DNA of 16,880 bases from Bacteroidales bacterium (GTDB taxonomy: Bacteria > Bacteroidota > Bacteroidia > Bacteroidales > UBA3824): assembly GCA_017543645.1 (NCBI GenBank), contig JAFYFR010000070.1, positions 1-16,880 of the forward strand, in the 5' to 3' direction. Position numbers and translations under genes: made by a program. Shown here piece by piece: positions 2,727-13,912 of this stretch. The notes beneath the pieces were generated by a model, which saw nothing but the letters and a program-made list of their open reading frames with translations, was not told the origin of the DNA and searched no databases. How positions within the stretch are numbered: position 1 is the stretch's first letter; every line of letters begins with the position of its first letter.

Positions 2727-3308
2727 ATGAAGGATACAGCCAAAATAATTCAATCCCTTGCCTATATCGCTTGGAAGATAGACAAAAACGGTATGAACGA
2801 TATGAAAGCCTACAAATTGCTTTGGCTTGCCGACCGTTATCAGTTGCGGACGGCAGGCATAAGCGTTAGCGGTGACACATATTATGCTATGCCGCACGGA
2901 CTTGTACCTTCTGATGCAAAATGTATCCTCGAAGGTGAAAACACCAAATTGAACAACGATTACGATTATCAAAAAAAATACATAAAAACAATTGACAAAC
3001 ACCATTACGCAGTAATAGCAGAACCCGATACCGACCAATTTTCAGAATCAGATATTGCAGCATTAGATAAAGTTATTGCGACATTTGGCAATTTCAGTGC
3101 AAAAGACTTATCTGAACTTTCGCATAAATTTCCTGAATGGACTTATTATCAAGGTATGTTGGCCGATAAGGATTCCAAAAATTCGTATCGTGTAAACATT
3201 GATCACTTTTTTGAACCTTGTGATGAAAAATGCAACGGATTGTTTGAACAAAGCGCAGAACATCTTGCTCTTACCAAAGAATTATACCATCAATACAACC
3301 GAATCTAA
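2727..3308 (+). CDS. Panacea (SocA/DUF4065) domain antitoxin
   Basis: 193 residues. The Panacea domain covers roughly residues 8-130: the opening helix 'IIQSLAYIAWKI', then 'MNDMKAYKLLWLADRYQLR', 'GISVSGDTYYAMPHGLVPS' and a later helix 'SAKDLSELSHKFPEW'. The pattern 'KLLWLADR...G...GD.Y.AM.HGPVPS' is diagnostic for the SocA/DUF4065 family, which serves as a chaperone-like antitoxin partnered with many unrelated toxins in PanAT operons. Here the partner is the small gene starting 2 nt after this stop codon. The family match is seen in the sequence; the antitoxin role follows from family knowledge and gene order. Soluble, no signal peptide. The neighbouring accessory genes and the tRNA-like genes downstream suit a mobile defence or toxin-antitoxin region. 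Confidence 0.85.
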   Translation: MKDTAKIIQSLAYIAWKIDKNGMNDMKAYKLLWLADRYQLRTAGISVSGDTYYAMPHGLVPSDAKCILEGENTKLNNDYDYQKKYIKTIDKHHYAVIAEPDTDQFSESDIAALDKVIATFGNFSAKDLSELSHKFPEWTYYQGMLADKDSKNSYRVNIDHFFEPCDEKCNGLFEQSAEHLALTKELYHQYNRI

Positions 3309-3310
3309 CA

Positions 3311-3742
3311 ATGGAGTTACCGATTAATCTATATGGTGATGTCGTAACCGAAGGTGATTTATATTTTTTTGCTGCCGATTGTCCAATAGGTATTGCTGAT
3401 CATATTCATGTGTGTATCAAGCATAAAGATAGAATCCTGATGTTTACCGCTTGTTCTTCGCAAATTGACACAGCCATGCGATTAGCACAATTGAGAGGCT
3501 ATGACCTCAATATTTTTCCTGTTCTTGTACAAAACAACACCAACAAATTTCGTAAGCCGCACACTTATATTAATTGTAACAATGTTATCGAAATCACAAC
3601 AGCAGAATTTGGTGCACTCATAAATTCAGGAAAAATAAAACGTCTCGATGGCAAAATCAATGGTTCAGAATTACAACTGATTGCTAACGGAGTCAAAATA
3701 AGCCCCGATGTTCCGTTGAGAATCAAAAAAATGTTTATGTAA
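3311..3742 (+). CDS. Putative toxin partner of Panacea antitoxin, unrecognised family
   Basis: 143 residues, starting 2 nt after the Panacea stop, so translationally linked. I do not recognise the family. Visible features are a strand-rich N-terminus ('GDLYFFAADC', 'HIHVCIKHKDRILMFTACSS'), a middle helix 'QIDTAMRLAQLRGYD', a strand 'IFPVLVQNNTNKF', then a conserved-looking 'KPHTYINCNNVIEI' and a C-terminal helical tail. The early 'GDLYFF...HVCIK..D.I..FT' and later 'TYINCNNV' faintly recall the MazF/PemK SH3-like barrel, but the usual MazF 'RP' and catalytic residues are not evident, so this is only a suggestion. Toxin function is inferred from position after a Panacea gene. Cys residues are unusually frequent (three within about 30 residues near the N-terminus). 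No membrane segment. Confidence 0.75.
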   Translation: MELPINLYGDVVTEGDLYFFAADCPIGIADHIHVCIKHKDRILMFTACSSQIDTAMRLAQLRGYDLNIFPVLVQNNTNKFRKPHTYINCNNVIEITTAEFGALINSGKIKRLDGKINGSELQLIANGVKISPDVPLRIKKMFM

Positions 3743-5957: not shown

Positions 5958-7070
5958 ATGACAGAGCGTGATTTTATATTGGAACTTATGCAGTCGACAG
6001 GCAATGAGGACTTGCATTACATATACAGGGGCGAGTTTACCCAGAGTTTGTCGCACCAGATATTGTCGCTTGCCGAAAAAAACATCGACAGGGATCATAT
6101 TTCGTCGAAAATCAAGAAGCGTGTGTTTCACATAATGGTAGAGAGTATCCAGAATATATCACGCCATCAGGACGCGCCCTACAATCCCGAGGAGACTGCA
6201 ATTTTTGCCATCCAGAAACAGAACGAGTATTATTACGTCACCACGGGCAACATTATAGAAAACAGCAAGACCGAGTCGCTCTGTGGAAAGCTCGACAAAA
6301 TCAACAACCTTGACCAGACAGAACTCGACGCATTTTACCGCGAGGTGCTGAGCAACGGACAGCTGTCGTCGAAAGGCGGCGCTGGTCTCGGTCTTATCGA
6401 GATGGCACGCAAGTCGGGCAACAAGTTGACCTATTCGCTCAAAAAGATTAGCGAGCTGATGTCGTATTTTTACCTTCACACCAGCATCAACACGCAGACA
6501 CTCGCGCAAGAATCCGAGCAGCTGCCAACTTCGGTTTTCTCGCTCAACTACATGACCAACCTGCACCAGTTTATCATAGAGAACAACGTGCTACTTATAT
6601 ACAGCACCGTGTTTGATCAGGACAGCCTTCTGAGCCTTATTTCGATAATGAAGAGCCGCAGCGACACGCCAAACTTTCGCAAAAAGACCATCAGCCTTAT
6701 GACCGAGATGCTCCAGAACATCATCCACCACGGAGATGTCAACATCGGCGGCATCAAAGGCAGCAAGGGAATTTTCTACATTTCGGAAAAAGAAGGATGC
6801 CACGAGCTGACCACCATCAACTATATTCCAAACACCTCTATCGACAAGCTCAAAGAAAAAATCGACTATGTGAACAACCTCACCGACGAACAGCGCGAGG
6901 AGTATTACAACGAGCGTCTGTTCGACTTCCGCATGATAACTACCAAGGAAGCTGGACTTGGCTTTATCGAGATGCGCATCAAGAGCAAGCATCCGTTGGA
7001 ATACACCTTTTATAATGTAGACACCGGATATTCTCTGTTTAAATACACTATCCGCTTAAACAACAATTAA
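5958..7070 (+). CDS. Tandem SiaB-family (DUF6272) protein kinase, two GHKL domains
   Basis: 370 residues made of two successive copies of a SiaB/DUF6272-type GHKL kinase fold (about 1-180 and 190-370). Each copy has an N-box helix: 'VESIQNISRHQD' (E62, Q65, N66, H70) and 'TEMLQNIIHHGD' (E250, Q253, N254, H257/258). Each has a glycine-rich G-box followed by the same family tail: 'KGGAGLGLIEMARKS' (139-153) and 'KEAGLGFIEMRIKS' (330-343), then 'L.Y.' and a final strand. SiaB proteins phosphorylate SiaC on Ser/Thr in the Pseudomonas SiaABCD pathway and are about 180-190 residues long, so this is a fused duplicate. The first G-box (GGAGLG) is fuller than the second (EAGLG), hinting at division of labour. 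The siaC-like gene follows after 9 nt. Soluble, cytoplasmic. ATG 5958 is the first and only sensible start. Confidence 0.85.
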   Translation: MTERDFILELMQSTGNEDLHYIYRGEFTQSLSHQILSLAEKNIDRDHISSKIKKRVFHIMVESIQNISRHQDAPYNPEETAIFAIQKQNEYYYVTTGNIIENSKTESLCGKLDKINNLDQTELDAFYREVLSNGQLSSKGGAGLGLIEMARKSGNKLTYSLKKISELMSYFYLHTSINTQTLAQESEQLPTSVFSLNYMTNLHQFIIENNVLLIYSTVFDQDSLLSLISIMKSRSDTPNFRKKTISLMTEMLQNIIHHGDVNIGGIKGSKGIFYISEKEGCHELTTINYIPNTSIDKLKEKIDYVNNLTDEQREEYYNERLFDFRMITTKEAGLGFIEMRIKSKHPLEYTFYNVDTGYSLFKYTIRLNNN

Positions 7071-7079
7071 CTAACTGTT

Positions 7080-7457
7080 ATGGATTCGCTGATAATCGAA
7101 AGTTCTGACGAAACCCCCTCGGTAACGCTTGACAAGCAGCGGGGGATTTTCCGCATAGCGGAAACGTCGTATCCAGAAGACTCAAAAAACTTCTATAAGC
7201 CTATACTGCAATGGCTTGAAAAATATTTTTCTGACCCGAACCCCGAAACCCTGTTCGAGTTCAACCTTTCGTATTACAACACATCGAGCGCGAAGATGAT
7301 AGCCAAGATACTCTCAATACTCGCCGACAACCGCTCCAAAAGCCGTATTTCAATAAAATGGTATTACGAGGCGGACGACACCGACCTTTTGAAATCGGGG
7401 CAGAGGTTTTCGCAGCTGAGCGGAATGGATTTTGAATATATCGAAACTCAGGAATAA
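7080..7457 (+). CDS. SiaC-family regulatory phosphoprotein (DUF1987)
   Basis: 125 residues, almost exactly the length of Pseudomonas SiaC. Family features are the strand-rich N-terminus with 'GIFRIAETSYPEDSKNFYKP', the following helix 'ILQWLEKYFSDP', and the core 'FEFNLSYYNTSSAKMIAKIL' split by its phospho-acceptor site. Thr68 in 'YYNTSSAK' lies at the position reported for the phosphothreonine of SiaC. In the known system SiaB phosphorylates and the PP2C phosphatase SiaA dephosphorylates this residue, and unphosphorylated SiaC activates the diguanylate cyclase SiaD. Here it is in an operon with a tandem SiaB-like kinase (9-nt gap), and a SpoIIE/PP2C sensor phosphatase lies 0.8 kb downstream; no GGDEF protein is in the window, so the effector is unknown. 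Confidence 0.88.
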   Translation: MDSLIIESSDETPSVTLDKQRGIFRIAETSYPEDSKNFYKPILQWLEKYFSDPNPETLFEFNLSYYNTSSAKMIAKILSILADNRSKSRISIKWYYEADDTDLLKSGQRFSQLSGMDFEYIETQE

Positions 7458-7460
7458 AAA

Positions 7461-7490
7461 AAGGCTGTCAAATCCTTGACAGCCTTTTTT
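7461..7490. terminator. Bidirectional intrinsic terminator between siaC-like gene and hsp20
   Basis: An 11-bp perfect stem, AAGGCTGTCAA (7461-7471) with TTGACAGCCTT (7476-7486), and a 4-nt loop. It has a T run on its right and an A run on its left, so it can stop transcription of both convergent genes. Confidence 0.9.
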
Positions 7491-7511
7491 ACTTAATCAT
7501 GAGACAAAACA

Positions 7512-7919
7512 CTATTTAATTTCAATAGATGTCTGGGTGTCTTGCGGCGCGGTCTTAGGCACTTTGATAGTGAGGATGCCTTGGTCGTACGCCGCCGAAA
7601 TTGCCGATGCGTCCACGCCCTGGGGCAGGGTAAACGAGCGGCGGAAACTGCCGAACGAGTATTCTCGGCGGTAGACATCCTGTTTCGACGTCTCTTCTGT
7701 CTTGGTCTCACGCTCTGCTTCAATCGTAAGCTCGTCGCGCAGGATATTCACTTTGAAATCTTTTTTCTCGTATCCCGGGGCGGCCATGTCGATTACAAAG
7801 TCGGTTTCGGTTTCGCTGATGTTTACAGGCGGAACATTGAAAGCTTTTTTGTTTTGAAAGAATGGATAAAACACTCCGTTGTCGAAGAGGTTATCCGAGT
7901 TGAATAATTTTTGCAACAT
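7512..7919 (-). CDS. Hsp20 / alpha-crystallin small heat-shock protein
   Basis: 135 residues from ATG 7919, which has a rare clear Shine-Dalgarno GGAGG (7925-7929) 5 nt upstream. In-frame upstream starts at 7955 (MKTHNF) and 8066 are less likely. The alpha-crystallin domain spans about residues 28-125: 'PPVNISETETDFVIDMAAPG' at its start, 'KKDFKVNILRDELTIEAER', then 'YRREYSFGSFRRSFTLP' and the closing 'AAYDQGILTIKVPK', followed by a short C-terminal extension with the I-x-I-type motif in 'TSIEIK'. It is an ATP-independent holdase that binds unfolding proteins in the cytoplasm. It stands between the siaC-like gene and the sensor phosphatase but on the opposite strand; whether it belongs to that pathway is unknown. 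Upstream lie TGTCA palindromes (8083-8128) that could regulate it. Confidence 0.93.
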   Translation of the reverse strand: MLQKLFNSDNLFDNGVFYPFFQNKKAFNVPPVNISETETDFVIDMAAPGYEKKDFKVNILRDELTIEAERETKTEETSKQDVYRREYSFGSFRRSFTLPQGVDASAISAAYDQGILTIKVPKTAPQDTQTSIEIK

Positions 7920-8082
7920 ATTTGCCTCCGTATTTAAAAAGTTATGTGTTTTCATTTTGTGTAATATTTTAATTTGTTCAACATTTAATCTCCGGCTCGC
8001 TTCCTTAGCGCATCGGGAAGTTCCGCCGTTCGTAAAGAGTATTTTCAAACTCAGTGCCAATACCAAAAAATGCCTATTTTTA

Positions 8083-8128
8083 TGTCAAAATGGCAGTTTT
8101 AGGACAATTTGACAATGTCAAAATGACA
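8083..8128. promoter_or_regulatory. Cluster of TGTCA/TGACA palindromes, candidate operator
   Basis: Three overlapping or adjacent dyads: TGTCA-AAA-TGGCA (8083-8095), TTTGACA-A-TGTCAAA (8108-8122) and TGTCA-AAA-TGACA (8116-8128). They lie in the 340-nt divergent intergenic region between hsp20 (start 7919) and the sensor phosphatase (start 8260). No consensus promoter for hsp20 is visible nearby, so an alternative sigma factor or a stress regulator is plausible. Apart from these dyads and the promoter boxes at 8201-8242 I see nothing coding in 7920-8259. Confidence 0.5.
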
Positions 8129-8200
8129 GTTAGTATAAATATTTATAATTTATTGGCAGTTGTGTAATGTTTTAATATGTCTAAAAAATTGAAGAATAAT

Positions 8201-8242
8201 TATATTTGTTACGTATAAAATAACTAATTTGTATTATATTTG
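8201..8242 (+). promoter_or_regulatory. Two -7 boxes ahead of the sensor phosphatase
   Basis: TATATTTG occurs twice, at 8201-8208 and 8235-8242, both perfect TAnnTTTG matches, 52 and 18 nt before ATG 8260. Neither has an ideal -33 element, so one or both may be used. Confidence 0.55.
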
Positions 8243-8259
8243 CGAAAGTTAGATATAGA

Positions 8260-11200
8260 ATGAATAACAAACTTAAAATAATATTACCGCTATTGCTTTT
8301 TGTGCTGGCCTTTACCGGCGGGTCGGCTCAGAGTGGATATAGGTTTTATAGTATTAACGAATCTAACGGTCTGAATAGCAATATTATAACATCCGTTACC
8401 GAAGATGGCGACGGATTTATATGGATAGGCACGCAGACAGGTCTTTCGCGCTACGATGGCAATTCGTTAGTGATGTTCAATGATTTGAGCGACTCGCTGA
8501 GTCTCGAAGGCAGCAGCGTGTCGGATCTCAAAGCCGATAAGAACGGCGACATTTGGATAGCTACTGACCATGGTGTGGCAAAATACAGCATCAAGCGTGA
8601 AAAAATGATGCTCTATTCTATACGTATAGGTGCAGATGATACGCCCATAAATAGTTATCTTGCTAAAAACCTGTATGTTACCTCCGATAATAAGATGCTT
8701 GTTTTTGCCGACAACGGAATGATGTTTTTGTTTAATGACGAAAAACAATTGTTTGAACCATACGCCTACGATTTTTTCACTCACCACACCATAAGGTTTT
8801 CGTTTGTCGACAACGACCAGACATTGTGGGCAATCGACAAAAACGCCACTTCTATATATCATGTCAACAATAACGGAATGATTATCGATTCGTTAGAGTG
8901 TGTCTCCAAAAGTTCGTTTCCTTTAGTAGAAACAGGCGCGTTTATCAATCATGGCGACGGTACGGTTTGGATTGGCTCATATACAGGTATTTACGAGATT
9001 AATTTGGCATCGCATAGCGTAACACAGCTAACCGAGCTTGGCGGAAAGCCTCTGCCGGTGTGCATCAAGACATTTTTTAAGCACCAGAACGGCGACATCT
9101 GGATTGGTACCAACGCCGAAGAGCTTTATGTTGTAAACCGCGAATCCAAGAGCGTGGAGATGATAGAGTCGGATCACAGCCAACGGTCGACACGTCAGCT
9201 CAATAGCGTAACAGTCAACACCATTTTCCAAGACAGCAACGGCATAATGTGGTTTGGCACATGGCACGGAGTTTCGTTTCTCGATCCTAACAATCCTATA
9301 AGGTTCGATGCTCTTAGCTATCCTGAAAACTCCTCTATTTTGATGCAAAACCAGATTTCGTCAATTTGCCAAGCTCCCGACGGAACATTGGCTATAGGCA
9401 GCGACGGCGGAGGCATTGTGTTTTGGGACGGCAAGAGCACCAAAAACTGCGGAGTGTATAACAACGCAGTGCCCCACAGCACCATGAAGAACTCCTCGGT
9501 GCTTGCCATGGCATACGACAAAGAAGGGAACCTCTGGTCGGGCGGATACAACAATCCGTTGCACAAGCTAAGTCCCGACCGCAAAACCGGCAAAGCTTTC
9601 AGTCTTGTAGGTAGTATCGACGGTATCACAAACGATTTTATTGTGGACATACTTTTTGACAAGCTTAACAGGATGTGGGTGCTTACCAACGGTGCGGGAC
9701 TTCTGATGTTTGATCCTAAGGCAGAGAAATTCACCCCCATAACCTGCGATTCGCGGCTTGTAGAACCATGCAGCCTTTACGGTACTTGCCTCTGCGCCGG
9801 ACCCGACACAACAATCTTGGTGGGTACTTATTCGGGTATGTTTGTCTACTATCCCGATAAGGATATTATAGAAAACTACACATTCAGTTACGGCAATCCT
9901 TACAGTATTTCGCACAATGTGGTCAACGACATAACATACGACCGCAACAACCGTATCTGGATTGCCACGCCCGCCGGACTCAACAAGTTTGACATTCAGA
10001 GGGGGATTTTTTCGCACGTGGGCGATAAGTCGGAGCTCAAAAACATGATTTGTACCAACGTGGTGCAAGACCAGACCTACGATCTTTGGATTACCACCAA
10101 CAAAGGAATTATTAAGTTTAATCCTGAGGTTAATGTGGTGTCGCGAATCTACGATACCGACGACGGTGTTCTGTCCAACAGTTTTGAGAAACATTCAGCT
10201 TTGATGACTCGCGATGGTAAAATATGGATAGGCACACACGACGGAGTGGTTTCGTTCCACAATGTTAATGTGCGTACCATCACCAACGTGCCCAAGCCCA
10301 TAATTACCAGCCTGTTGATAAGGTTCAACCAGATACACCCCGAGGCACAGGGTTCGCCGTTGTCGCAGTCGATTACCAGCACCGACGAGATTACGCTTTC
10401 GTGGAAGGATATAATATTTTCGTTTGAGTTCACCACTTTGGACTTTATTTACGGCAAGAACACAAAGTTTTTTTACAAGCTCGAAGGCTACAGCAACGAA
10501 TGGACAAACCTCGGCACACGTCGCGAGGTGGGATTCTCCAACCTCAGTCCGGGCAGGTACACATTGCGCCTGATAGCCGAAAATTCCGACCGTGTGCGCA
10601 GCGAGGAGTGCGTGTTGGTTATCAACATCCTGCCGCCGTGGTACAAGACCAAAACGGCTATCGCGGTGTTTGTGCTGCTGGGATTGCTTATGTTTTGGCT
10701 TGTGCATCAGCTAAGGACGAGGGGATTGCGCCGCCGTCAGAACGAGTTGGAGCAGATTGTGAAGAGCCGCACATCCGAACTCGTAAAGCTCAATTCCGTG
10801 CTTGAATCGCGCAACGAGGAGATGAAGCAGCAGAACGAGGAGATACAGTCGCAGCGCGACGAGCTTTTTGAAAAGAACAACGAACTTCACGCCAGCCGTG
10901 CTGAGATCCAAAATTCTTACCAGAGGCTTTTAGACCTCAGCGAGTTGGACAAAGAGATTTCTGGCTCTACCGATATTGCTACTATCCTGCTCAAAGTATA
11001 TAACAATCAGGTAGTTCCGATTGACGGTTGCGGCTTGTGCATTTGCAAGCTTTCGCAAAAGCTTAATGTCGTGGAGTTTTCGCCATATCTTCAGGACGGA
11101 CAGTCGTGGGATTTGCCCGACGAGAAACTTTTGGACCTTATTGACCCGCTCACACTCACCTGTTTTCAAAACAATCAGGAGGTGGTGGCAGATAATTCGT

Positions 11201-12252
11201 CCGACTACGAGGTTTCTCCGTTCCTTATGGAGATGGGCTACCGCACTTGCGTAAGGATTCCGCTGTGCAGAGGCAACGATGTGTCGGCTGTGATGATTAT
11301 CAACAGTCCAAAGGAAAACGCGTTTTCCAAAAACGACATAGCCATTTTCAAGGTGATAGCCTCTTACAGCGAGATAGTTATCGAAAAAGCCGACGCGTAT
11401 TCGCTCATCAAATCCAAAAACGTGGCTATCAACGGCAGCATAACATACGCCAAATCCATTCAGGAGTTGCTTTTGCATCAGATAGACGATTTCAGGCACT
11501 ATTTCAACGCCGACGTTATCTACCGTCCAAAGGATATTGTTTCGGGCGATTTTCTTTGGCAGCGCGTGGTAAAGGGCAAAAACGGTTTCATGGTGTTCTG
11601 CGCGGTGGTAGACTGCACAGGACATGGTGTCCCCGGAGCGTTTATGAGCCTTATAGCCAATCGTTTGCTGTCGGAAGCGGTTATCTACAAAAAGATTTAC
11701 GAGCCTAATGACATTCTTTCGCATATTTCGGAAATCACATCCTTGGTGCTTAAACAAAGCAACGGCGAAAACAAGGACGGCATGGATATGTCGCTCTGCC
11801 GTTTCGATGTGGATGCCGACGGCAATATGTACCAGTTTGTATATTCAGGAGCGAAGTGTCCGATACTTTTCCGTCGGAGCAACAGCAGCCACTGCCTTCT
11901 GATACCCGCCGACCGTATCTCCATTGCCGGAGGATCGCGCCGTTTTCTCGACGAAAGGCCGCAGTTTACACAACAGATATTCGAGATAGTGCCGGGCGAC
12001 ACTATATATATGTATAGCGACGGCATTATAGACCAGAGCAACCGCGAGCGCACAAGGTTCGGACGCAAACGGCTTGTCGAATGTCTTAACAACACTCAGG
12101 ATCTTAGCCCATCAATGCAGAAAGAAAAATTGGAACGCACCCTCGATGCCTATTCAGCCTATACCGAACAGCGCGACGACATTACACTGCTGATACTTCA
12201 GGTCAGGGAGAAGGTGGAGTGCCTCGACGAAGATGTTAATGCATACGCTTAG
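8260..12252 (+). CDS. Propeller-Y_Y_Y-GAF-SpoIIE membrane sensor phosphatase
   Basis: 1330 residues. Order: signal peptide (1-24, ending GGSAQS); about 14 two-component-regulator propeller blades (about 30-690), with repeated motifs such as 'GFIWIGTQTGLSRYDG', 'GDIWIATDHGVAKYS' and 'GKIWIGTHDGVVSFH'; a Y_Y_Y domain (about 707-794); one TM helix (about 797-819); a coiled coil (about 820-900); a GAF domain (about 900-1047); and a SpoIIE/PP2C phosphatase (about 1070-1320). Metal-binding PP2C motifs are intact: 'SGDF' (about 1095), 'DCTGHGVPGAFMS' (D1118), 'YSDGIID' (D1254) and 'RDDITLL' (D1306, D1307). The periplasmic half equals that of Bacteroides hybrid two-component sensors for polysaccharides, but no kinase, receiver or AraC domain is present. 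It would sense a ligand outside and dephosphorylate a Ser/Thr phosphoprotein inside; the nearby SiaC-like protein is the obvious candidate, by analogy with SiaA. That link is inferred. Confidence 0.93.
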   Translation: MNNKLKIILPLLLFVLAFTGGSAQSGYRFYSINESNGLNSNIITSVTEDGDGFIWIGTQTGLSRYDGNSLVMFNDLSDSLSLEGSSVSDLKADKNGDIWIATDHGVAKYSIKREKMMLYSIRIGADDTPINSYLAKNLYVTSDNKMLVFADNGMMFLFNDEKQLFEPYAYDFFTHHTIRFSFVDNDQTLWAIDKNATSIYHVNNNGMIIDSLECVSKSSFPLVETGAFINHGDGTVWIGSYTGIYEINLASHSVTQLTELGGKPLPVCIKTFFKHQNGDIWIGTNAEELYVVNRESKSVEMIESDHSQRSTRQLNSVTVNTIFQDSNGIMWFGTWHGVSFLDPNNPIRFDALSYPENSSILMQNQISSICQAPDGTLAIGSDGGGIVFWDGKSTKNCGVYNNAVPHSTMKNSSVLAMAYDKEGNLWSGGYNNPLHKLSPDRKTGKAFSLVGSIDGITNDFIVDILFDKLNRMWVLTNGAGLLMFDPKAEKFTPITCDSRLVEPCSLYGTCLCAGPDTTILVGTYSGMFVYYPDKDIIENYTFSYGNPYSISHNVVNDITYDRNNRIWIATPAGLNKFDIQRGIFSHVGDKSELKNMICTNVVQDQTYDLWITTNKGIIKFNPEVNVVSRIYDTDDGVLSNSFEKHSALMTRDGKIWIGTHDGVVSFHNVNVRTITNVPKPIITSLLIRFNQIHPEAQGSPLSQSITSTDEITLSWKDIIFSFEFTTLDFIYGKNTKFFYKLEGYSNEWTNLGTRREVGFSNLSPGRYTLRLIAENSDRVRSEECVLVINILPPWYKTKTAIAVFVLLGLLMFWLVHQLRTRGLRRRQNELEQIVKSRTSELVKLNSVLESRNEEMKQQNEEIQSQRDELFEKNNELHASRAEIQNSYQRLLDLSELDKEISGSTDIATILLKVYNNQVVPIDGCGLCICKLSQKLNVVEFSPYLQDGQSWDLPDEKLLDLIDPLTLTCFQNNQEVVADNSSDYEVSPFLMEMGYRTCVRIPLCRGNDVSAVMIINSPKENAFSKNDIAIFKVIASYSEIVIEKADAYSLIKSKNVAINGSITYAKSIQELLLHQIDDFRHYFNADVIYRPKDIVSGDFLWQRVVKGKNGFMVFCAVVDCTGHGVPGAFMSLIANRLLSEAVIYKKIYEPNDILSHISEITSLVLKQSNGENKDGMDMSLCRFDVDADGNMYQFVYSGAKCPILFRRSNSSHCLLIPADRISIAGGSRRFLDERPQFTQQIFEIVPGDTIYMYSDGIIDQSNRERTRFGRKRLVECLNNTQDLSPSMQKEKLERTLDAYSAYTEQRDDITLLILQVREKVECLDEDVNAYA

Positions 12253-13177: not shown

Positions 13178-13912
13178 ATGAAACTAAAATGTATGGTCAT
13201 AGACGACGAGCCGCCGGCAGTGCGGCTTATGCAGAATTTTATTGAGCGCACTCAGAATCTCGAGTTTGTGGGCGGTTACACCGACAGCGTGGAGGCTATT
13301 CAAATAATTAAAGAAAACCCGCCCGACGTGCTTTTCCTCGACATTCAGATGCCCGACTTGGACGGAATGCAGCTGTCGAAAATGGTTCCGCCTGAAACAA
13401 AAATAGTGTTTTCAACGGCTTACAAGGAGTATGCTTTCGACAGTTACGACGTGAGCGCAATAGACTACCTGCTCAAGCCTGTCAGTTATGCCAAGTTTCT
13501 CAAGGCTGTGGAAAAATGTCAGGAGTGGTACGAACTGAAAAACGCTTCGCAATCAACGTCATCCGCACCCGTCCAGCCTGTCACAGCACAGAGTACCAAC
13601 ACGTTTTTTATCAAGAGCGAATCGTTGCTTGTACGTATCGACGCATCCGAAATACTCTATATTTGCGCCCTCAAAGATTATGTGCGCTTTGTGTTCGACA
13701 GCGGCCGCAAGCCCATTATCTCGCTTATGACCATGAAGAATGTGGAACAGATGTTGCCTGCCGACAAATTTATACGTGTAAGCCGTTCTTATATAGTGGC
13801 AATCAATAAGATACGTTCTGTGGATAAGAACAACTGCATATACATCGGCGACGAGGTAGTCCGCGTTACCGATGTATATAGCGAGCAGTTTAAAAAGTTT
13901 ATAGGCGTGTGA
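13178..13912 (+). CDS. LytTR-family response regulator, no kinase alongside
   Basis: 244 residues. The receiver domain (about 4-118) has the acidic pocket 'MVIDDEPPA' (D9, D10), phospho-acceptor Asp55 in 'LFLDIQMPDLDG', the Thr/Ser of 'IVFSTAYKEYAFDSYD' and the switch Lys in 'YLLKPVSY'. A Ser/Thr/Gln-rich linker (about 123-143) leads to a LytTR DNA-binding domain (about 145-242) with 'ILYICALKDYVRFVF', 'MTMKNVEQMLPADKFIRVSRSYIV' and 'INKIRSV'. These regulators usually pair with a YehU-type (5TM or LytS-like) histidine kinase; none is present, so it is an orphan within this window. Its targets cannot be told from sequence. It is divergent from the exported unknown protein (100-nt gap) and its last 14 nt overlap the S41 protease gene on the other strand. 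Confidence 0.95.
   Translation: MKLKCMVIDDEPPAVRLMQNFIERTQNLEFVGGYTDSVEAIQIIKENPPDVLFLDIQMPDLDGMQLSKMVPPETKIVFSTAYKEYAFDSYDVSAIDYLLKPVSYAKFLKAVEKCQEWYELKNASQSTSSAPVQPVTAQSTNTFFIKSESLLVRIDASEILYICALKDYVRFVFDSGRKPIISLMTMKNVEQMLPADKFIRVSRSYIVAINKIRSVDKNNCIYIGDEVVRVTDVYSEQFKKFIGV

Follow-up and report, generated by a model that had tools for sequence, protein, structure and literature searches.

A tandem SiaB-family kinase beside SiaC in a Bacteroidales genome: a candidate Sia-type partner switch in a setting nearly free of GGDEF enzymes

What does a kinase and target pair of the Sia type control in bacteria that hardly possess the enzyme it serves in Pseudomonas? The literature found describes the Sia switch as a single pathway of Pseudomonas for cyclic di-GMP (c-di-GMP) and biofilm formation; among the items listed by the search, none dealt with Sia genes in Bacteroidota or with propeller–SpoIIE proteins. 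The question is raised by a stretch of 16,880 nucleotides from a Bacteroidales bacterium (assembly GCA_017543645.1, contig JAFYFR010000070.1), hereafter the window, in which a gene for a tandem SiaB-family kinase is followed by a gene for a SiaC-family phosphoprotein. The reading preferred here, with a probability of about 0.6, is that positions 5958 to 7457 encode a Sia-type threonine partner switch, in which the tandem SiaB acts on Thr68 of SiaC, the effector is not a cyclase, and SiaC is reset by a pool of SpoIIE-type phosphatases. The proteins of the window were scanned with Pfam and NCBIfam models, and whatever is reported as not found in the window refers to the proteins so scanned.

The tandem kinase and its likely target

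The pair is encoded as follows.

5958 to 7070, plus strand: tandem SiaB-family kinase, 370 residues (PF19788, NF038262, open reading frame list)
7080 to 7457, plus strand: SiaC-family phosphoprotein, 125 residues (PF09345); Thr68 codon at 7281 to 7283

An initial annotation had named these genes a tandem SiaB-like kinase and a SiaC-like target with Thr68 kept, and both assignments hold. The first protein matches PF19788 (DUF6272) in two stretches (224 bits, cut-off 26.6) and exceeds the cut-off of the NCBIfam family SiaB_fam_kinase (NF038262; 219.8 bits, cut-off 85), while reaching 102 of the 225 bits set for the equivalog biofilm regulation kinase SiaB (NF038264). By these scores it is a family member and not an orthologue of the biofilm SiaB. 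The second protein matches PF09345 (SiaC, DUF1987; 120.5 bits, cut-off 24.5), has Thr at residue 68 in the motif YYNTSS, and scores 75.9 bits on the equivalog phosphoprotein SiaC (NF038265), below its cut-off of 150. Only nine bases separate the two genes. SiaB and SiaC also stand side by side on one strand in the SiaABCD system of P. aeruginosa, where Thr68 likewise lies in Y-x-N-T-S-S.

This arrangement recurs. Among 75 tandem SiaB proteins, the one of the window included, SiaC is encoded just downstream (at most 700 bp, same strand) in 52 cases and is fused to the kinase in 13. The 10 proteins with neither include L032, whose gene precedes a second tandem gene and then SiaC, L015, with SiaC 0.96 kb off, and L068, with SiaC on the other strand. 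When one SiaB–SiaC fusion was used as the query, all of the best 120 of 2493 matching proteins bore both domains; the window SiaC as a protein query returned only three proteins. Because of the recurrent bicistrons and natural fusions, the pairing of tandem SiaB with SiaC as kinase and target is well supported at the level of sequence.

Single-chain SiaB–SiaB–SiaC fusions of 499 to 533 residues were seen in L026, L039, L040, L047, L056, L058, L059, L067, L070 and L087 to L090, that of L090 with Lys in the place of Thr68. The model of one SiaB–SiaC fusion matches the SiaB and SiaC chains of 6kko, and its predicted template modelling score (pTM) of 0.72 leaves their mutual placement unfixed.

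The two halves of the tandem kinase are unequal. The N half (about residues 1 to 180) has a VESIQN box at 61 and the G-box GGAGLG at 140, and the C half (about residues 190 to 370) has a TEMLQN box at 249 and KEAGLG at 330; against P. aeruginosa SiaB they score 58 and 18 bits, respectively. Comparison of 76 N halves, 76 C halves and 16 single domains shows 96 to 100% conservation at each of the three places of the Glu-x-x-Gln-Asn box. The N halves also retain the GG(A) of the ATP-lid G-box, as do the single domains for the most part; most C halves have lost it and keep GLG. Throughout an alignment of 98 rows, Glu62, Gln65, Asn66, Asn98 and GGAGLG of the N half are invariant, as are Glu62 and Glu250 as a pair, one per half. 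Glu61 of Pseudomonas SiaB is the predicted catalytic residue in an excerpt of PMC7647112; assuming a one-residue numbering shift between the chain and the paper, the Glu aligned with it is present in both halves. The AlphaFold model of the tandem kinase pair has a pTM of 0.83, and SiaB of 6kko is ranked first for it by both Foldseek and VIA-align. In P. aeruginosa, SiaB is described as a dimer (PMC7278518), whereas here two SiaB domains are doubled, asymmetrically, in one polypeptide. The tandem protein can be read as a fused, asymmetric dimer, of which the N half would be the working site. In the proposed mechanism, this covalently joined kinase pseudo-dimer would phosphorylate Thr68 of the adjacent SiaC, and the phosphorylation state of Thr68 would decide whether SiaC binds its effector.

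The RsbU/RsbW/RsbV and SpoIIE/SpoIIAB/SpoIIAA switches also employ a SpoIIE-type phosphatase, and the SiaB fold matches SpoIIAB and RsbW, more weakly than SiaB. The target here, in contrast, is SiaC (DUF1987), which is not a STAS member by Pfam. No sigma factor was found among the window proteins scanned, no search having been aimed at STAS or sigma genes.

A probable output other than a cyclase

One departure from SiaABCD concerns the likely output. No GGDEF domain was found among the window proteins scanned, and neither SiaD nor any other GGDEF protein was found in the three close genomes searched (G001, G002 and G003). Genome-wide counts come from these relatives and from an order sample of 198 genomes, the genome of the window itself not being among those searched. 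A second departure in the relatives is the number of paralogous copies per genome: G001, G002 and G003 hold 17, 13 and 16 SiaC matches, 18, 17 and 16 SiaB-domain matches and 52, 38 and 47 SpoIIE matches, respectively, and SiaB genes counted by contig number 12 (6 tandem), 12 (5 tandem) and 11 (5 tandem).

In the order sample, in which SiaC and SpoIIE matches per genome are lower bounds, SiaC occurs in 87 and SpoIIE in 148 of the 198 genomes, while a GGDEF match was obtained in 6, in 5 of them above the cut-off. SiaC and GGDEF meet only in G069, and there none of the 18 SiaC matches lies on the contig with the GGDEF match. The mutual exclusion is not significant (Fisher p 0.23), since GGDEF is rare altogether. 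Absence from a single metagenome-assembled genome (MAG) can be due to incompleteness, but incompleteness hardly accounts for absence from 86 of the 87 genomes with SiaC. With GGDEF in none of the three close genomes and in 1 of 87 genomes with SiaC, an effector other than a diguanylate cyclase, as the initial annotation had supposed, is supported by gene content; the effector of the window SiaC would accordingly belong to another class of protein.

A candidate for the place of SiaD is an ABC transporter. In the canonical operon of G001, siaC is followed by the gene of a 1171-residue ABC protein with ABC_tran and ABC2_membrane domains, whose best NCBIfam match is the ABCG-type TIGR00955 (253 bits, below its cut-off) and which ABCG1 and ABCG2 match over both parts. 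Relatives of this protein at E ≤1e-80 occur in 84 of the 198 genomes. Among the 150 SiaC and 150 ABC places listed, the ABC gene follows SiaC on one strand at at least 41 places in 41 genomes (22 to 372 bp apart) and converges with it at at least 29 places in 29 genomes (42 to 671 bp apart). Twenty loci of each kind were read: 19 of the 20 same-strand loci have the order SpoIIE–SiaB–SiaC–ABC in one direction, and all 20 convergent loci have SiaB–SiaC facing ABC. L159 has SiaB–SiaC–ABC with no SpoIIE match in about 4 kb upstream; L175 has a second SiaB in the operon, and in L160 the ABC gene lies in two frames. The SiaA–SiaB–SiaC–ABC operon (L073, L156 to L175) and the convergent form (L176 to L195) recur across the order sample, where SiaC and ABC occur together in 79 genomes, SiaC alone in 8 and ABC alone in 5 (Fisher p 3e-39, uncorrected for kinship). 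An FHA domain suspected by eye in the ABC protein found no match in Pfam, and a TerB match lies over the cut-off in L024 (31.6 bits) and not in L073 (13.1 bits).

The stalk of Pseudomonas SiaD is bound by SiaC in its unphosphorylated form, and DUF1987 proteins are suggested by the same authors to act as modulators of proteins adjacent to them (excerpt of PMC8457831). By gene position, the ABCG-like transporter is a candidate replacement of SiaD, to which SiaC may bind, and a transporter appears the likeliest kind of output for the Sia system as a whole. A wider proposal, tentative and put at somewhat less than even odds, is that the Bacteroidales switch has been rewired from cyclase to ABCG-like transporter. 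SiaC dephosphorylated by SiaA would then gate the transporter whose gene follows or faces its own. Lineages such as that of the window would have gained, in addition, stand-alone asymmetric modules of tandem SiaB and SiaC and dozens of sensor phosphatases, giving a c-di-GMP-free, many-to-many phosphorylation network.

The sensor phosphatase downstream

The initial annotation had joined the next plus-strand gene to siaB and siaC as the phosphatase of a three-part switch. The features that bear on this proposal are listed here.

7457 to 7490, no strand: strong hairpin with A-tract and T-tract between siaC and hsp20, probable terminator for both directions
7512 to 8066, minus strand: Hsp20 small heat-shock protein, longest open reading frame, true start probably further in; not part of the switch
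8260 to 12252, plus strand: transmembrane sensor phosphatase, 1330 residues (Pfam domains, hydropathy)
13178 to 13912, plus strand: response regulator with LytTR DNA-binding domain (Pfam), a neighbour kept in L001 to L003

The positions of the open reading frames agree with the open reading frame list, and the description of a transmembrane PP2C/SpoIIE phosphatase with a propeller sensor is borne out, with the GAF domain, hsp20 and the hairpin as additions. Pfam finds Reg_prop (113 bits, 5 stretches), Y_Y_Y (41 bits, residues 729 to 790), GAF (26 bits, 937 to 1037) and SpoIIE/PP2C (84 bits, 1113 to 1315), the propeller lying N-terminal of the other domains. Hydropathy gives one stretch at about residues 796 to 820 besides an N-terminal one that resembles a signal peptide, and a coiled coil is probable. 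The sensor half is of the hybrid-regulator type, as had been proposed: the propeller half matches the solved Bacteroides hybrid two-component sensors 4a2l and 3v9f, which share the propeller region and Y_Y_Y. Unlike these, the protein has no histidine kinase, receiver or DNA-binding part (HisKA, HATPase_c and receiver are absent from its Pfam table), and its output consists of GAF and PP2C. By analogy the signal may be a glycan; no Sus-type gene was seen among the window proteins scanned.

As in SiaABCD, a SiaA-type PP2C domain is thus found near siaBC. Its sole solved relative in the PDB at E ≤0.001 is SiaA-PP2C (6k4e, E 1.3e-19), and Asp residues aligned with the SiaA active-site Asp, which we take to be metal-binding, are kept. 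On the equivalog SiaA (NF038263) the protein scores 122 bits against a cut-off of 700. The SiaA-model score was discarded as proof of partnership: SpoIIE proteins match this model in 12 of 12 genomes searched, many of them above 122 bits, and in 12 of 14 control genomes too. SiaA Phe612, a docking residue from simulation in an excerpt of PMC7647112, was likewise rejected as a marker of specificity because it does not discriminate: at the aligned position all 19 canonical SiaA-like domains of Bacteroidales carry Lys or Arg, and those of the window clade carry Thr (3) or Ala (1).

The phosphatase differs from that of SiaABCD in its propeller and GAF sensor parts and apparently also in its transcription unit. 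The hairpin at 7457 to 7490 (folding energy -20.5 kcal/mol, z -7.3; not listed by a simple terminator scan) and the convergent hsp20 intervene between siaC and the phosphatase gene and point to two transcription units. The gene is the next on the plus strand, yet most likely not in the siaBC operon. Bacteroides-type promoters follow the pattern TTTG-N17-23-TAnnTTTG; the window has four matches where 0.81 are expected, none of them on the plus strand ahead of siaB or the phosphatase gene. Separately transcribed, the propeller–GAF–PP2C protein would be one candidate among the SpoIIE-type phosphatases that are proposed to reset SiaC from a large genomic pool.

The strongest competitor of any link is that the adjacency is incidental, the phosphatase serving another substrate (another SiaC paralogue or a STAS anti-anti-sigma protein) and another SpoIIE protein resetting the tandem pair. 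This falls a little short of an even chance. The 38 to 52 SpoIIE and 13 to 17 SiaC matches per close genome leave room for it, and according to an excerpt of PMC11418112, PPM phosphatases of Bacillus reach STAS substrates via docking loops whose evolution can be independent of the kinase interface. Moreover, the linkage is unseen outside the closest relatives: this phosphatase gene stands beside siaBC only in the window and in L001 to L003, MAGs from yak rumen, reticulum and omasum that are closest to it, and the expected recurrence of the three genes in related genomes mostly failed to appear. In an orthogroup of ten tandem SiaB proteins, all four members of the window clade have a SpoIIE gene at 3 kb or less, and so does L014, where it is of the TPR type. 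None lies within 3 kb in the stretches read of L012, L013, L015, L016 and L019, some of which end early upstream at contig ends; in L012 one without propeller match is 6.6 kb off. On the other side stands a rough, about twofold enrichment near tandem loci. Of 82 matched places 68 were analysed, which with L079 and L080 gives 70 loci; a SpoIIE gene lies no more than 3 kb away in 14 of these (among them L091, the orthologue of the window itself) against 6.5 expected (standard deviation 2.4) and no more than 8 kb away in 18 against 10.4, with densities approximated from candidate counts over rounded genome sizes and with related loci included. Pairs of SpoIIE and SiaB genes elsewhere also speak for a connection. 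Among 20 regions chosen for other SpoIIE proteins (L136 to L155), SiaB adjoins one in L136, L140 and L141, SiaC and SiaB lie downstream of the SpoIIE gene in L147, and in L154 a Sia cluster is 3.7 kb away.

That the phosphatase is, conversely, the specific SiaA of this SiaB and SiaC, feeding one periplasmic signal into a dedicated switch, is unlikely. Besides the enrichment and the SiaA-like PP2C domain, the idea draws on the order siaB2–siaC–hsp20–PP2C, which L001 to L003 keep while the genes upstream of siaB differ (sufC in the window, others in L003), and on L093, L094, L107 and L122, where a propeller phosphatase adjoins a single SiaB on the same strand. These are 4 of 44 regions chosen by PP2C likeness (L092 to L135), represent two or three lines of descent by tree, and have no SiaC in the stretch read. 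The conserved order, however, continues past PP2C through the 12253 protein, LytTR, S41 and LRR to ispF, five further genes, so that the neighbourhood of siaBC and PP2C says little by itself. Against a dedicated role stand also the hairpin and hsp20 in between, and the many SpoIIE proteins that match the SiaA model. In G058, which has the next orthologues, the two genes are apart: the tandem SiaB is on contig 3, where the 19 kb read around it contain no propeller phosphatase, and the PP2C protein (34–36% identity, full length) is encoded on contig 124, 2.9 kb from a contig end, where the 17 kb read contain no Sia gene. The phosphatases closest to that of the window in a tree of 46 propeller phosphatases are those of L092, L111 and L112, around which the stretch read contains no Sia gene. 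Of the proposed three-part switch, the pairing of SiaB and SiaC is well supported and the dedicated phosphatase link is not. Propeller-type sensor phosphatases are wired to SiaB in places; for this one a partnership with siaBC is possible from its position and unproven.

Clustering of the conserved neighbours of tandem SiaB as possible effectors gave no gene group in more than seven loci, several groups being the window's own synteny or single-SiaB loci. In the window and in L001 to L003 the LytTR response regulator stands next to the region of the propeller phosphatase, and no histidine kinase was found among the window proteins scanned. Elsewhere in the window, a SocA-like protein with a Panacea antitoxin domain (2727 to 3742) is closely followed by a 143-residue protein without Pfam match, and the two could be a toxin–antitoxin pair. 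At 901 to 1598 lie two open reading frames that do not share a frame and resemble one gene split in two; an NYN domain is encoded by the second.

Standing of the proposed switch and its meaning

Several points weigh against the partner switch preferred here. The C half of the kinase, having lost the GG of the ATP-lid G-box, may not bind ATP. The majority of the SpoIIE genes encountered in these genomes have no Sia gene beside them, and their products may act on other substrates. No ABC gene lies beside the siaBC pair of the window, the joint occurrence of SiaC and ABC in 79 of 198 genomes carries no correction for kinship, and the genomes come without completeness figures, which makes absences soft. 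That the tandem SiaB by now serves chiefly to hold SiaC, as a pseudokinase or anti-factor, and is no longer an active kinase is improbable: most of the 76 C halves lack the GG, which is not among the invariant C-half columns of the 98-row alignment, but the N-half residues Glu62, Gln65, Asn66, Asn98 and GGAGLG are invariant in all rows, and most single SiaB domains keep the same residues. Phosphorylation of SiaC by SiaB is the predicted reaction of the partner switch. What the sequences establish is the families, the retention of catalytic and target residues, the pairing through operon and fusion and the lack of GGDEF in three close genomes; the reactions, the transcription units, the phosphatase partner and the effector are deduced.

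The families involved are ordinary and their wiring is unusual, the points of interest being the near-GGDEF-free setting and the transporter operon. In these bacteria the Sia switch persists, and has multiplied, although GGDEF enzymes are nearly missing, and its added features are a kinase dimer fused into one chain, fusions of kinase and target, and an ABC transporter gene that recurs where the cyclase would stand. Both the kinase step and the contact between SiaC and the transporter are directly testable with purified proteins. If true, the proposed switch would assign a role to two domain families that are widespread in Bacteroidales, and would offer a natural case for how cross-talk is avoided among about fifteen parallel kinase–target pairs.

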